A DNA stretch of 64,000 nucleotides from Halosimplex salinum (GTDB lineage: Archaea > Halobacteriota > Halobacteria > Halobacteriales > Haloarculaceae): contig NZ_QWGG01000006.1 in the NCBI RefSeq assembly GCF_003730195.1, forward strand, positions 62,001 to 126,000. Direction: 5' to 3'. Positions within the stretch are counted from its first letter, which is position 1; every line of letters begins with the position of its first letter. The position numbers and the translations under genes are program-made. The notes beneath the pieces were generated by a model. It made no database searches. It was not told where the DNA came from and was given only the letters and a program-made list of their open reading frames with translations. Below, in pieces: positions 5,005 to 23,291 of this stretch.

Positions 5005-5849
5005 GTGCGCCGCTCTGGGGCGCACTGGCGACTGCCGGTATCCTCGGTGTCACCCACGCGATCGAACCGGACCACGTGGCCGGCATCTCGTCGGTCACGA
5101 GCCAGTACGGCGACTCGCGGCTGTCGGCGCTCGTCGGCGCCTGCTTCAGCCTGGGTCACGTCGCGCTCGTGGTCGTCTGGCTCGTCGGCGGGTATCTCGT
5201 CCTCGGGCGGACGGAGTACCCCGCCGTCTTCGACAGAGTCGGGACGGTCGGCGTCGCCGTCCTCCTCGGCGCCCTCGGCGCGGCGATGGCCGTCGGCGGT
5301 CTCCGGTCGATCCGCCACACGCACGCCCACGAACACGACGGCGAGGTCCACGCTCACTCTCACCTCCACCTGCCGTTCGTCGGGAGCGACCACGACCACT
5401 CCGAGGAGCCGGTGGACCACTCACACGACGACGGCGGCGTCGCGCATACGCACGACGGAGCACGCTACGACTTCGAACGGACGGTCGAGACGGACTCGTC
5501 CGGCGGCGACGACCGCACGGAGGGAGTCGTGCCCCACGGACACGGCCACGGCGTCGGCGCGTATCTGAAGACCGGCGTCGTCGGGGCGCTGTTCACGCTC
5601 TCGCCGCCGCTCTCGATGATCCTCTTCGCGTCGACGCTGTTCCCCGACTACGGCGGCGGCGTCGTCGCGCTCGCGGTGGCCGCCTACGCCGTCTCGATCA
5701 CGGCGACCATGAGCGCTATCGGCGCCGGCGTCGGCACGCTGTTCGGCGCGGCCGCGGTCAGCCCCCGTCTCCACGCCGGCGCGCGCGTGCTCGGCGGCGT
5801 CGTCGTCGCCGGGTTCGCCGTCTCGCTGCTCCCCGGGACGATTCTCTGA
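5001..5849 (+). CDS. ureH: UreH/NicO-type nickel permease
   Basis: This multi-pass membrane protein (about 6 helices, 282 aa) is expected to import nickel for urease. The first helix carries HAIEPDH (residues 19-25), matching the HX4DH signature of nickel/cobalt permeases, and the second carries FSLGHVALV. A His/Asp-rich hydrophilic loop (about residues 105-185) with repeated HAH, HDH and HGH motifs probably binds metal. It sits beside the urease operon and before the urea importer. The start is supported by GGAGG 7 bases upstream. Confidence 0.88.
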   Translation: MSAPLWGALATAGILGVTHAIEPDHVAGISSVTSQYGDSRLSALVGACFSLGHVALVVVWLVGGYLVLGRTEYPAVFDRVGTVGVAVLLGALGAAMAVGGLRSIRHTHAHEHDGEVHAHSHLHLPFVGSDHDHSEEPVDHSHDDGGVAHTHDGARYDFERTVETDSSGGDDRTEGVVPHGHGHGVGAYLKTGVVGALFTLSPPLSMILFASTLFPDYGGGVVALAVAAYAVSITATMSAIGAGVGTLFGAAAVSPRLHAGARVLGGVVVAGFAVSLLPGTIL

Positions 5850-6056
5850 CTGCGTCGAATTTCCTCGCTCCTTCTGATCGCCCGTCCACTGCCACGCTCC
5901 GCGGGAGTCCGTCCGGCGACCCGTCCGAACCCGCTCTCCCGCTGTCTTCTCTCAGAACACCATATTTCCACTATTGTAGCCAATTTCGTTCGAAGTTCTA
6001 CTATTTTCGCCCCTTCCTAACATGTCCTAATATTCAAGCCGGGTGTCTTGGACATC

Positions 6057-6064
6057 TATAATAC
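6057..6064 (+). promoter_or_regulatory. TATA box upstream of urtA
   Basis: TATAATAC is the best TATA match in this region, immediately after the ATGTCC/GGACAT inverted repeat. Transcription would start near 6088, about 125 nt before the urtA ATG. Confidence 0.45.
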
Positions 6065-6173
6065 GAGAGTGCAAACCCTTATTTACCGTCTACAAAATCG
6101 AAGGAATGTACGCATATGATGGACGCTCGTGCGGATATATTCCGGTACAGTGGTGGAAATAGTGACGTTTCGG

Positions 6174-19974: not shown

Positions 19975-21807
19975 ATGGCGGACGATTCTATCGCGGTCGT
20001 CGACCTCGAGCGCTGTCAACCCGACCGCTGTAACTACGAGTGCGCGAACTTCTGTCCCCCGAACCGCTCCGGCAAGGAGTGCATCGTCACGCGCGAGGAG
20101 CGCTTCGAGGGCGAGGACGGCTACGAGGGCGGCGCCGACCAGATACACATCTCCGAGGAGATCTGTCTCGGCGAGACCTGCGGTATCTGCGTCAACAAGT
20201 GCCCGTTCGACGCCATCGAGATCATCAACCTCCCGCAGGAACTCGACGACGACCCCGTCCACCGCTACGGCGAGAACGCCTTCGCGCTCTACGGCCTGCC
20301 CGCACCCCAGGAGGGGCAGGTCACCGGCATCCTCGGCCCGAACGGCATCGGGAAGACGACCGCCGTCCGCATCCTCGCCGACGAGATGGCTCCCAACCTC
20401 GGGCAGGTCTCGGGCGACCCGCCCGGCTGGGAGGCGATCATGGACGAGTACCGCGGGACGGAACTGCAGAACTACCTGCAGGAACTGCGCGACGGCGACG
20501 TGACCGTCGCCCGCAAACCGCAGTACGTCGACCAGATCCCCGACCAGTTCGACGGGACCACCCGCGAACTGCTCGAACGCACCGACGAACGCGGGGCGCT
20601 CGACGACCTGATCGAGCGGGTCGGCATCCGCCCGGTCGTCGACCAGGACATCGACACCCTCTCCGGCGGCGAACTCCAGCGAGTCGCGCTCGTGGCGTGT
20701 CTCGCTCGCGACGCCGACTTCTACTTCCTCGACGAACTCACCCCCTACCTCGACATCGGCCAGCGGATGACCGCCGCGCGACTCGTGCGGGAACTCGCCG
20801 ACGAGGAGGACCGCTCGATGCTCGTCGTCGAGCACGACCTCGCCATCCTCGACCTGCTCGCCGACACGATCCACGTCGCCTACGGGTCACCCGGGGCGTT
20901 CGGTGTCGTCACGAGCCCCAAATCCACGAAGAACGGCATCAACGAGTACCTCTCGGGCTACCTCGAGAACGAGAACATGCGGGTGCGTCAGGAGTCGATC
21001 ACCTTCGAGGAGCACGCGCCCCGCCAGACCGCGGACAGCGAAGTCGTCGTCGAGTACCCCGACCTCAGCAAGTCCTACGGCGACGGCGAGTTCTCGCTCG
21101 AAGTCGAGGGCGGCGAGATACAGGAGAACGAGGTGCTGGGCGTCGTCGGCCCGAACGGCATCGGGAAGTCGACGTTCGCCAAACTCCTCGCCGGGCGCCT
21201 CGAACCCGACGAGGGCGAGGTGAACGCCCGCCTCGACATCGCCTACAAGCCCCAGTACGTCGAGATCGACCAGCCGATGCGCGTGGACGCCTTCCTCGCC
21301 TCTATCACCGACGACTTCGGCTCCTCGTACTGGAACACCGAAATCGCTGAACCGCTCCAGATCGACGCGGTGATGGAGCAGAACCTCACCGACCTCTCCG
21401 GCGGGGAGCGCCAGCGCGTCGCCATCGCGGCGTGTCTCTCCGAGGACGCCGACCTGTACCTCCTCGACGAGCCGTCGGCCCACCTCGACGTGGAACAGCG
21501 GGTGCGCGCGACCAGCGCCATCCGCCGCTACACCGAGAACCACGACGCCACCGCCCTCGTCATCGACCACGACATCTACATGGTCGACCTGCTCGCCGAC
21601 CGGCTGCTCGTCTTCGACGGCGAACCGGCCCAGCACGGCCACGCGTCCCCGCCCGTCGGCATGCGCGACGGCATGAACGAGTTCCTCGCGAACCTCGACA
21701 TCACCTTCCGCCGCGACGAGCGCACCGGGCGCCCCCGGATCAACAAACCGGACTCGCAACTCGACCGCGAGCAGAAGAACGCCGGCGAGTACTACTACAG
21801 CGACTGA
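19975..21807 (+). CDS. rli: Ribosome recycling/biogenesis ATPase RLI (ABCE1)
   Basis: This 610-aa twin-ATPase iron-sulfur protein splits post-termination ribosomes with aRF1/aPelota. The N-terminal [4Fe-4S] pair has cysteines C14, C19, C23, C27 and C64, C69, C72, C76. The two ATPase domains carry GPNGIGKTTA and GPNGIGKSTF P-loops and LSGGELQRV / LSGGERQRV signatures. Walker B of the first domain is LDELTPYLDIGQR; the second is LDEPSAHLDVEQR. The length is normal and the start is an ATG 2 bp after the EMC6-like gene. Confidence 0.97.
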   Translation: MADDSIAVVDLERCQPDRCNYECANFCPPNRSGKECIVTREERFEGEDGYEGGADQIHISEEICLGETCGICVNKCPFDAIEIINLPQELDDDPVHRYGENAFALYGLPAPQEGQVTGILGPNGIGKTTAVRILADEMAPNLGQVSGDPPGWEAIMDEYRGTELQNYLQELRDGDVTVARKPQYVDQIPDQFDGTTRELLERTDERGALDDLIERVGIRPVVDQDIDTLSGGELQRVALVACLARDADFYFLDELTPYLDIGQRMTAARLVRELADEEDRSMLVVEHDLAILDLLADTIHVAYGSPGAFGVVTSPKSTKNGINEYLSGYLENENMRVRQESITFEEHAPRQTADSEVVVEYPDLSKSYGDGEFSLEVEGGEIQENEVLGVVGPNGIGKSTFAKLLAGRLEPDEGEVNARLDIAYKPQYVEIDQPMRVDAFLASITDDFGSSYWNTEIAEPLQIDAVMEQNLTDLSGGERQRVAIAACLSEDADLYLLDEPSAHLDVEQRVRATSAIRRYTENHDATALVIDHDIYMVDLLADRLLVFDGEPAQHGHASPPVGMRDGMNEFLANLDITFRRDERTGRPRINKPDSQLDREQKNAGEYYYSD

Positions 21808-21873
21808 ACTGCGACGGACAGTCGTCCCGGATACGTCCGAACTCTTTTCCGATATTCCGCCGTACCGACTGGT

Positions 21874-22077
21874 ATGAGCACGGGGCGCGAGATCCGACTC
21901 GTAGAGGAAGACGACGGCTGGTGGTCGGCTATTGACGAGGAGACTGGAGTCGCGAGCCAGGGGCCGAGCAGGACGGAAGCGCTGGCGAACCTCGACGAAG
22001 CCGTCGAGGCGACGCGGGAGGCAGCGGAAGCCGACACTGACGCTCCGGAGCCGGACGCGCCGTGGTTCGACGAGTAG
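21874..22077 (+). CDS. hicB: HicB-family antitoxin
   Basis: This 67-aa mini-HicB contains the RNase H-like beta sheet (IRLVEEDDGWWSAIDEETGV) and the family helix EALANLDEAVEATREA, followed by an acidic Pro/Asp tail. It has no separate DNA-binding domain, so autoregulation would have to use another factor. It directly precedes hicA (3 bp gap); the B-then-A order is the reverse of the classical hicAB order but common in archaea. Confidence 0.85.
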   Translation: MSTGREIRLVEEDDGWWSAIDEETGVASQGPSRTEALANLDEAVEATREAAEADTDAPEPDAPWFDE

Positions 22078-22080
22078 TGC

Positions 22081-22326
22081 ATGTTTTCTCGCGATTTCTC
22101 GGGCGAGGAGATCGTCAACGTCCTTCGCAAGTTCGGATATCGCCACGATCGGACGCGTGGCGACCACGCTATTCTCAAGTACACGCATCCGGAGACGGAG
22201 GAGAAGCGGACGGTCACCGTCCCACTACACGACCGCGTTCGGACTGGGACGCTGCAGAACATCGCCGCTCAGTGCGGAGCGGAAGACTTCCGTTCGTGGT
22301 GTGAATGGATCGACGAACACCGGTGA
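22081..22326 (+). CDS. hicA: HicA-family toxin (mRNA interferase)
   Basis: This 81-aa protein has the double-stranded RNA-binding-like HicA fold: FSGEEIVNVLRKFGYRHDR, the catalytic His segment RGDHAILKY, and RTVTVPLHDRVRTGTLQNIA. HicA cleaves mRNA when released from HicB. The length is typical. The Ser of the usual GSH motif is Asp here (GDH), a common variant. It follows hicB with 3 bp between, so the two are one toxin-antitoxin operon placed immediately after RLI. Confidence 0.87.
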   Translation: MFSRDFSGEEIVNVLRKFGYRHDRTRGDHAILKYTHPETEEKRTVTVPLHDRVRTGTLQNIAAQCGAEDFRSWCEWIDEHR

Positions 22327-22350
22327 TGGGAGCGGCTCGTCCCGGCCGAG

Positions 22351-22390
22351 ATGCGCGACGGCACGAACGAGTCCATAGTCGACCTCGAAT
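22351..22390 (+). pseudogene. Fragment resembling the 3' coding end of RLI
   Basis: Positions 22351-22374 match the RLI gene at 21661-21684 in 22 of 24 bases, and weaker similarity continues to about 22390. Translated, MRDGTNES parallels MRDGMNEF of RLI. It lies 24 bp after hicA and has no start or complete frame of its own. It is best read as a decayed partial duplicate flanking the HicBA module. Confidence 0.5.
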
Positions 22391-22440
22391 CACTTCCGGT
22401 CACAGCGATCGGGCCGGTCTGCTCGGAGCGAAGTTCTCGA

Positions 22441-23070
22441 CTACCCGGACTGCGCCGACGCGAGCACGCGGGCGACGTACTGCTGTCGCCAGAGCAGCCA
22501 GCCGCCGAGACACACCGCGAGCAGACCCAGCGCGGTGACGCCGACGGCGTCCCAGTGGGTCTTCGCGAGCGCACAGGACAGCGTCTCCCGCGCACACGCC
22601 CCGAACAGGGGTCGGGCGACGGCACCGAGATACACCAGCCCGGTTCCTACCGTTACGGCGGCGAGGCCCGCCAGTCCCTTCAGCAGGATCTCCCGAGTGC
22701 TCGGCGGGTCGGTGAGGATCGACTCTCGCACGTCTGCGCGCGGTCCCGCCGCCTGCGAGAACCCGGCGGTCAGGAGCAACAGGAGCGCGACGGGGGCGAC
22801 GAACAGCCCGATCGACATCATCCCCAGGATCGCGAGGCCCGTCGTCGGGAGAGCGGCCGCCCAGACGAGCGGCGTCCGGTTCGTCCACGCGCCGACCGCG
22901 GCGACGACGGCGAGCGCGACGACGGACAGTACCCACGCCGCGAAGTACGCGTCGGCGAACGGGTCCGGGTAGAGCAGGGCGAACGCGGCCGCACCCGAAG
23001 CGACGACGGCGAGCGCGCTCGACTGGCGGGCGGCCGCCTCGGGCGACGGGACGCCGATCGCGAGCGTCAC
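22441..23070 (-). CDS. Hypothetical multi-pass membrane protein
   Basis: This 209-aa protein starts at a GTG at 23070; an AT-rich element (CGAAAATCG) about 27 bp upstream supports it. The frame is also open to 23205, but the extra N-terminal residues look non-coding. There are about 6 hydrophobic segments, for example SSALAVVASGAAAFALLYPD, YFAAWVLSVVALAVVAAVGA and AVGVTALGLLAVCLGGWLLW, and three Cys between the last two helices. No family is recognised. It is convergent to HicBA. Confidence 0.65.
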   Translation of the reverse strand: MTLAIGVPSPEAAARQSSALAVVASGAAAFALLYPDPFADAYFAAWVLSVVALAVVAAVGAWTNRTPLVWAAALPTTGLAILGMMSIGLFVAPVALLLLLTAGFSQAAGPRADVRESILTDPPSTREILLKGLAGLAAVTVGTGLVYLGAVARPLFGACARETLSCALAKTHWDAVGVTALGLLAVCLGGWLLWRQQYVARVLASAQSG

Positions 23071-23291
23071 GGGCGCGGAACACCCCGATTTTCGCCGCGC
23101 GGTTCGACGGTCGGGCTCGCGACCGAAGGGCACATCGCGACAGATCCTTCGTAGAGGGGGACCGTCAGAGTATCGCCGGTCGCCGGCATCACCCCCAGTC
23201 GACACGGCCAGTCCCGCTGTACGGCCCGCCCTTCGTACGCCGGCATCGGGCTTACCGCTCCGACGGGAGTACCGACCGTAGAGCTTCGATT

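Follow-up and report, generated by a model that had tools for sequence, protein, structure and literature searches.

The fragment with similarity to RLI/ABCE1 that lies behind the hicBA toxin-antitoxin genes of Halosimplex salinum is very probably the ancestral 3' end of the RLI gene, still in place and preserved as the scar of an old hicBA insertion. In the window, by which we mean the whole stretch of 64,000 nucleotides that was analysed, an intact copy of RLI, an essential ribosome-recycling gene (19975-21807, plus strand; NCBIfam NF009945 equivalog, 939 bits) is followed by a module of ~0.5 kb that sits, as the earlier note had claimed, between two RLI tails, here two copies of the last ~160 bp of the gene. 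The working copy of the duplicated tail is the last ~170 bp of RLI (about 21637-21807), and the second copy extends from 22327 onward. The module opens with an upstream segment (21833-21873, plus strand) that contains a TATA-like stretch and aligns with the segment preceding hicB in other Haloarculaceae modules; the aligned segment starts 26 nt past the RLI stop, and the left module border lies at or before 21833. The insert contains only two genes, a hicB-like antitoxin gene of 67 aa (21874-22077, plus strand; DUF7387, PF24113, E = 1.8e-15) and a hicA toxin gene of 81 aa (22081-22326, plus strand; PF07927, E = 2.8e-13). The RLI 3'-end remnant occupies 22327-22420 on the plus strand, with a core at 22342-22398 and weak similarity beyond, and its last part is deleted or unrecognisable. 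Alignment with relatives that lack hicBA identifies the gene on its far side (22441-23205, minus strand) as the native downstream neighbour of RLI and the right flank of the insertion; its product is a predicted membrane protein by eye, with no Pfam match. The upstream tail copy completes the working RLI, a gene that kept or regained an intact end, and the downstream copy, beginning at the hicA stop and joined to the DNA that natively follows RLI, has decayed like a pseudogene.

We compared eight Halosimplex genomes, two of which carry hicBA at RLI and six of which do not. The second carrier, H. carlsbadense 2-9-1, has the same RLI-hicB-hicA order as the window and, directly after the hicA stop, an RLI tail of 159 bp with 76.7% identity to its own working tail (E about 1e-30; L031, 6356-6522), traceable as far as the stop-codon area. 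This remnant and the ~350 bp that follow it form a single alignment (516 bp, 79.7%) with the RLI tail of G003, a Halosimplex species without the hicBA module, and the DNA behind that tail; the sequence across the RLI stop codon, CTGACCGCG, is identical in the two. Likewise, window DNA from 22438-22454 onward aligns with DNA starting 17-66 nt past the RLI stop in three species that all lack hicBA (G006, G004 and G005, the last being H. aquaticum), so that their post-RLI flank matches the window flank beyond the fragment. From these alignments it follows that the fragment occupies the place that the RLI 3' end holds in empty loci. The earlier note had suggested looking for the fragment in genomes without hicBA, and it proved absent from their RLI loci: no second RLI tail was found in any of the six Halosimplex species whose RLI locus lacks hicBA, and no comparable one at about 80 further haloarchaeal RLI loci, except for unrelated RLI-end repeats in G190 and L038. 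The insert lies between two copies of the gene end, of which the far one runs into the native flank, and empty sites exist. We base the identification of the fragment as the ancestral RLI 3' end on the H. carlsbadense remnant, the native flanks and the lack of a second tail in hicBA-free Halosimplex.

The remnant in H. carlsbadense differs from working RLI tails with a dN of 0.23-0.28, compared with 0.01-0.07 among the working tails themselves, and it carries a 2-nt indel. Judged by these substitutions and the indel, it is evolving like a pseudogene, almost free of selection. The possibility that the fragment is instead a working element under selection in its own right, such as a gene for a short peptide or a region of regulatory RNA, finds some encouragement in the open frame of 45 codons that the H. 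carlsbadense copy retains, but with a dN close to neutral, an indel, and a tail that has largely been lost in the window, we regard it as very improbable. A chimeric and partly fresh remnant in H. carlsbadense was also considered and rejected, decay being visible by eye along its full length.

The earlier report of 22 identities in 24 positions between 22351-22374 and the RLI coding end at 21661-21684 held on re-check. Ungapped extension of this match gives 36/47 identities (21652-21698 against 22342-22388), gapped alignment with the RLI tail gives 82% over 50 bp (about 22351-22398), and the match keeps the RLI reading frame. The 5' border of the fragment lies earlier than described, at the hicA stop (22327), where the weaker flanking similarity 'CGTCCC..GCC' had been seen; recognisable RLI similarity ends at about 22398-22420 on the 3' side. 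A shuffle control, also proposed in the earlier note, used 300 dinucleotide-shuffled versions of the region scored against RLI: the best ungapped local score of the fragment was 20.5, the maximum among shuffles was 15, and none of the 300 reached the observed match. Chance similarity or convergent codon usage could draw on the inflation of short matches in GC-rich coding DNA and on 3 of 984 control pieces of the window that score above the fragment against RLI (near 10.4-10.9 kb and near 40.7 kb; probably genes encoding RLI-like domains), but it has virtually no likelihood left beside the shuffle result, the synteny of the fragment with the native RLI 3' end, and the orthologous remnant in H. 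carlsbadense, which refutes it. Shuffles, hicBA-free relatives and synteny together support the reading first put forward from the window alone, that of a leftover old RLI 3' end after hicBA insertion.

Next, we considered the history of the insertion in the two carriers. The distance from the hicA stop to the first RLI codon of the remnant is 24 nt in both (ATG in the window, GTG in H. carlsbadense), and the hicBA tree groups their modules as sisters. The shared junction spacing and the sister relationship of the modules indicate that a single old insertion probably lies behind both carriers. The two remnants also share two clear derived changes in about 38 columns, which chance could give, and the argument for a single origin therefore rests on the junction spacing and the module tree. 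We rejected a recent transfer of the module from one carrier to the other, as dS of the hicBA genes (0.53-0.90) is not below that of RLI (0.39, window species and H. carlsbadense). The near-neutral distance of the remnant amounts to about half the species distance, from which we roughly infer an insertion about as old as the split of the carriers, or older. An rpoB and EF-2 tree makes H. aquaticum the sister of the window species and places H. carlsbadense elsewhere; because the two carriers are not sister species, either several losses of the module or an old transfer must be assumed. One insertion probably took place around or before the separation of the two lineages, with the module lost later elsewhere, probably via recombination between the two tails, which would restore the empty site. 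As an alternative to repeated loss, the module could have passed between the lineages in an old transfer.

The module resembles type II HicAB systems in combining a HicA toxin domain (PF07927, 50.2 bits against a cut-off of 27) with a small partner gene, and it shows a distant match to structure 1whz. It differs in that the antitoxin gene comes first and that the partner matches DUF7387 (PF24113) rather than a model named HicB; toxin-antitoxin activity is putative. Neither the hicB-like nor the hicA gene has an NCBIfam match, and no relatives of HicA were found in viral contigs. Between the window species and H. carlsbadense, dN and dS are 0.03 and 0.53 for hicB and 0.06 and 0.90 for hicA, ratios from which strong purifying selection is evident for both genes.

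The sister clade of these two modules includes four that lie behind tRNA-Ala(CGC), adjoining tuf and rps10, in genomes of the genus Haloarcula. In three of them, G390 (L180), G407 (L181) and G308 (L183), the tRNA 3' end (AATCCCGGCGAGTCCAT) is repeated beyond hicA, and in the fourth, G363 (L182), the corresponding repeat has decayed. Further tRNA-end repeats divide a RelBE-like pair from hicBA in G390, and the hicBA and RelBE-like modules behind tRNA-Ala(CGC) look like an array of toxin-antitoxin cassettes at a tRNA 3' end with no integrase nearby. The three modules with intact repeats follow the same logic as the RLI site, namely an intact gene, the module, and a repeated gene 3' end, here with several repeats in a row. 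They differ from it in that the target is a tRNA gene and in a cassette-end motif not seen at RLI, a common TTCTTTCACG..GCGTG stretch that often precedes the tRNA 3'-end repeats in the Haloarcula cassettes.

We tentatively propose, with somewhat less than even confidence, that hicBA came to lie behind RLI through att-like integration at the 3' end of that gene. Such an entry would keep the essential RLI gene intact, and the integrase may have acted in trans or, perhaps, been lost since. We favour this route because of the sister modules in Haloarcula, which follow tRNA-Ala and are themselves followed by repeats of the tRNA 3' end. Among close hicBA loci, 6/13 are bracketed by direct repeats, compared with 20-23/300 random placements (Fisher p about 0.0002-0.0004, an optimistic value since the bracketed loci are not all independent). 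The background of gene 3'-end repeats, which lie behind about 1% of other genes, counts against att-like entry. No integrase or transposase was found among ten larger neighbour genes scanned around hicBA, no integrase among the 25 of 43 families listed for genes behind RLI in relatives, and no relative of the RLI tail, as an attP-type free element would carry, in viral contigs or phages. The insert itself holds no integrase, and because no integrase was found, we do not claim membership in integrative elements. A transposon or insertion sequence is not supported: there is no transposase among the ten neighbours scanned, there are no terminal inverted repeats (no inverted repeats at all in 21500-22600), and the duplication is ~160 bp long instead of a short target duplication.

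If the RLI tail suffered a staggered break, and both sides were filled in as hicBA DNA was captured, a long target duplication would arise with no recombinase; we consider this a real possibility, if not the expected course. It agrees with the lack of an integrase nearby, with the 3'-end repeats downstream of about 1% of other genes, with an intact tail that bears no foreign signal, and with the young RLI-tail duplication in G190 (90 bp, 98.9%), which flanks some 100 bp of unrelated DNA devoid of genes. Break repair alone, however, does not account for the siting of sister modules behind a tRNA gene whose 3' end is repeated. Rather unlikely, in our judgement, is a third route, in which donor DNA carrying an RLI tail followed by hicBA underwent homologous recombination with the resident RLI at one end and illegitimate joining at the other, so that the resident tail stayed behind downstream. 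Although this would account for the gene order, in which the remnant is followed by the native flank, no donor locus with RLI and hicBA but without the remnant was found, and the intact RLI tail of the window has its closest counterpart in the sister species (94.7%), so that no foreign tract is seen, which argues somewhat against a tail derived from a donor. The three routes differ only in how the scar arose; each takes the fragment to be the old RLI end, a conclusion of which we are highly confident.

Integrative elements typically leave gene ends behind next to the insert. For archaeal tyrosine-recombinase elements with att sites at gene 3' ends, protein-coding targets are reported, as are shared att stretches of up to 243 bp (PMC8371274). 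The RLI locus is like these elements in its intact host gene and in the partial gene end on the far side of the insert, and differs in having only two cargo genes, no integrase, RLI as the target, and a site-specific crossover that is putative. In Microcystis aeruginosa, a toxin-antitoxin pair is reported behind the MaOC1 gene between 152-bp direct repeats (PMC7935541), which is similar in the two-gene module downstream of another gene and in the repeat length of about 150 bp. The MaOC1 repeats, however, are identical and lie outside the gene, starting 14 bp after its stop, whereas the repeats described here are the coding end of RLI and one of them has decayed. No description of a haloarchaeal arrangement of RLI, hicBA and RLI tail was found in the literature searched. 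The scar is a well-resolved example of an essentially known kind of event; what is unusual here is RLI as the target, a minimal insert made up of hicBA alone, and clearly recognisable filled and empty sites. Through these sites, and through a decay that can be measured, the locus documents how a two-gene toxin-antitoxin module can settle directly behind an essential translation gene and leave it undamaged. Together with the sister modules at tRNA-Ala, it suggests that toxin-antitoxin pairs may spread in haloarchaea without carrying an integrase. This wider pattern of hicBA cassettes at gene 3' ends is suggestive. It might even be, though we give this little credence, that the hicBA subfamily spreads as a minimal two-gene cassette to the 3' ends of essential translation genes (RLI, and tRNA-Ala beside tuf and rps10), with the gene kept intact, the old end left behind and a recombinase acting in trans. 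If true, RLI/ABCE1 would be a new protein-coding attachment site.

Several further observations concern RLI and repeats elsewhere. Within Halosimplex, the spot behind RLI is fluid: the gene directly behind it varies (L111-L117, L031) and includes membrane-protein-like, ROK kinase and luciferase-like genes, and in G002 it looks by eye like a PIN-domain toxin gene. PIN proteins make up 2 of 94 proteins behind RLI among the 25 of 43 families listed. RLI as a general insertion hotspot was rejected, as tail repeats occur, among about 400 haloarchaeal genomes, only in the window genome, H. carlsbadense, G190 and, weakly, L038, which compares with a frequency of about 1% for other genes. Plasmid matches to the RLI tail are RLI paralogues where annotated, mostly whole, and whole second RLI genes sit on plasmids in several haloarchaea. 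The one exception is a stump of 36 codons of the RLI tail in Natronosalvus rutilus (L134, G336:C2; NZ_CP100356.1, 155500-155607), which neighbours a gene for multicopper oxidase on a plasmid of 340 kb and is probably a decayed plasmid-borne RLI paralogue. In G190 (L133, G190:C107), the RLI-tail copies at 2168-2259 and 2353-2449 represent an independent event; the intervening ~100 bp is single-copy in that genome, and the assembly consists of 360 contigs, so the duplication may be an artefact. In L038 (Haloarculaceae archaeon H-GB1-1), an RLI-end repeat of 39 bp with 82% identity (5800-5860 and 6035-6075) follows RLI at a distance of about 205 bp, and the DNA in between is rich in repeats and free of genes. 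Lastly, a more distant relative of hicA (L161, G277) lies between direct repeats of 138 bp with 92% identity.
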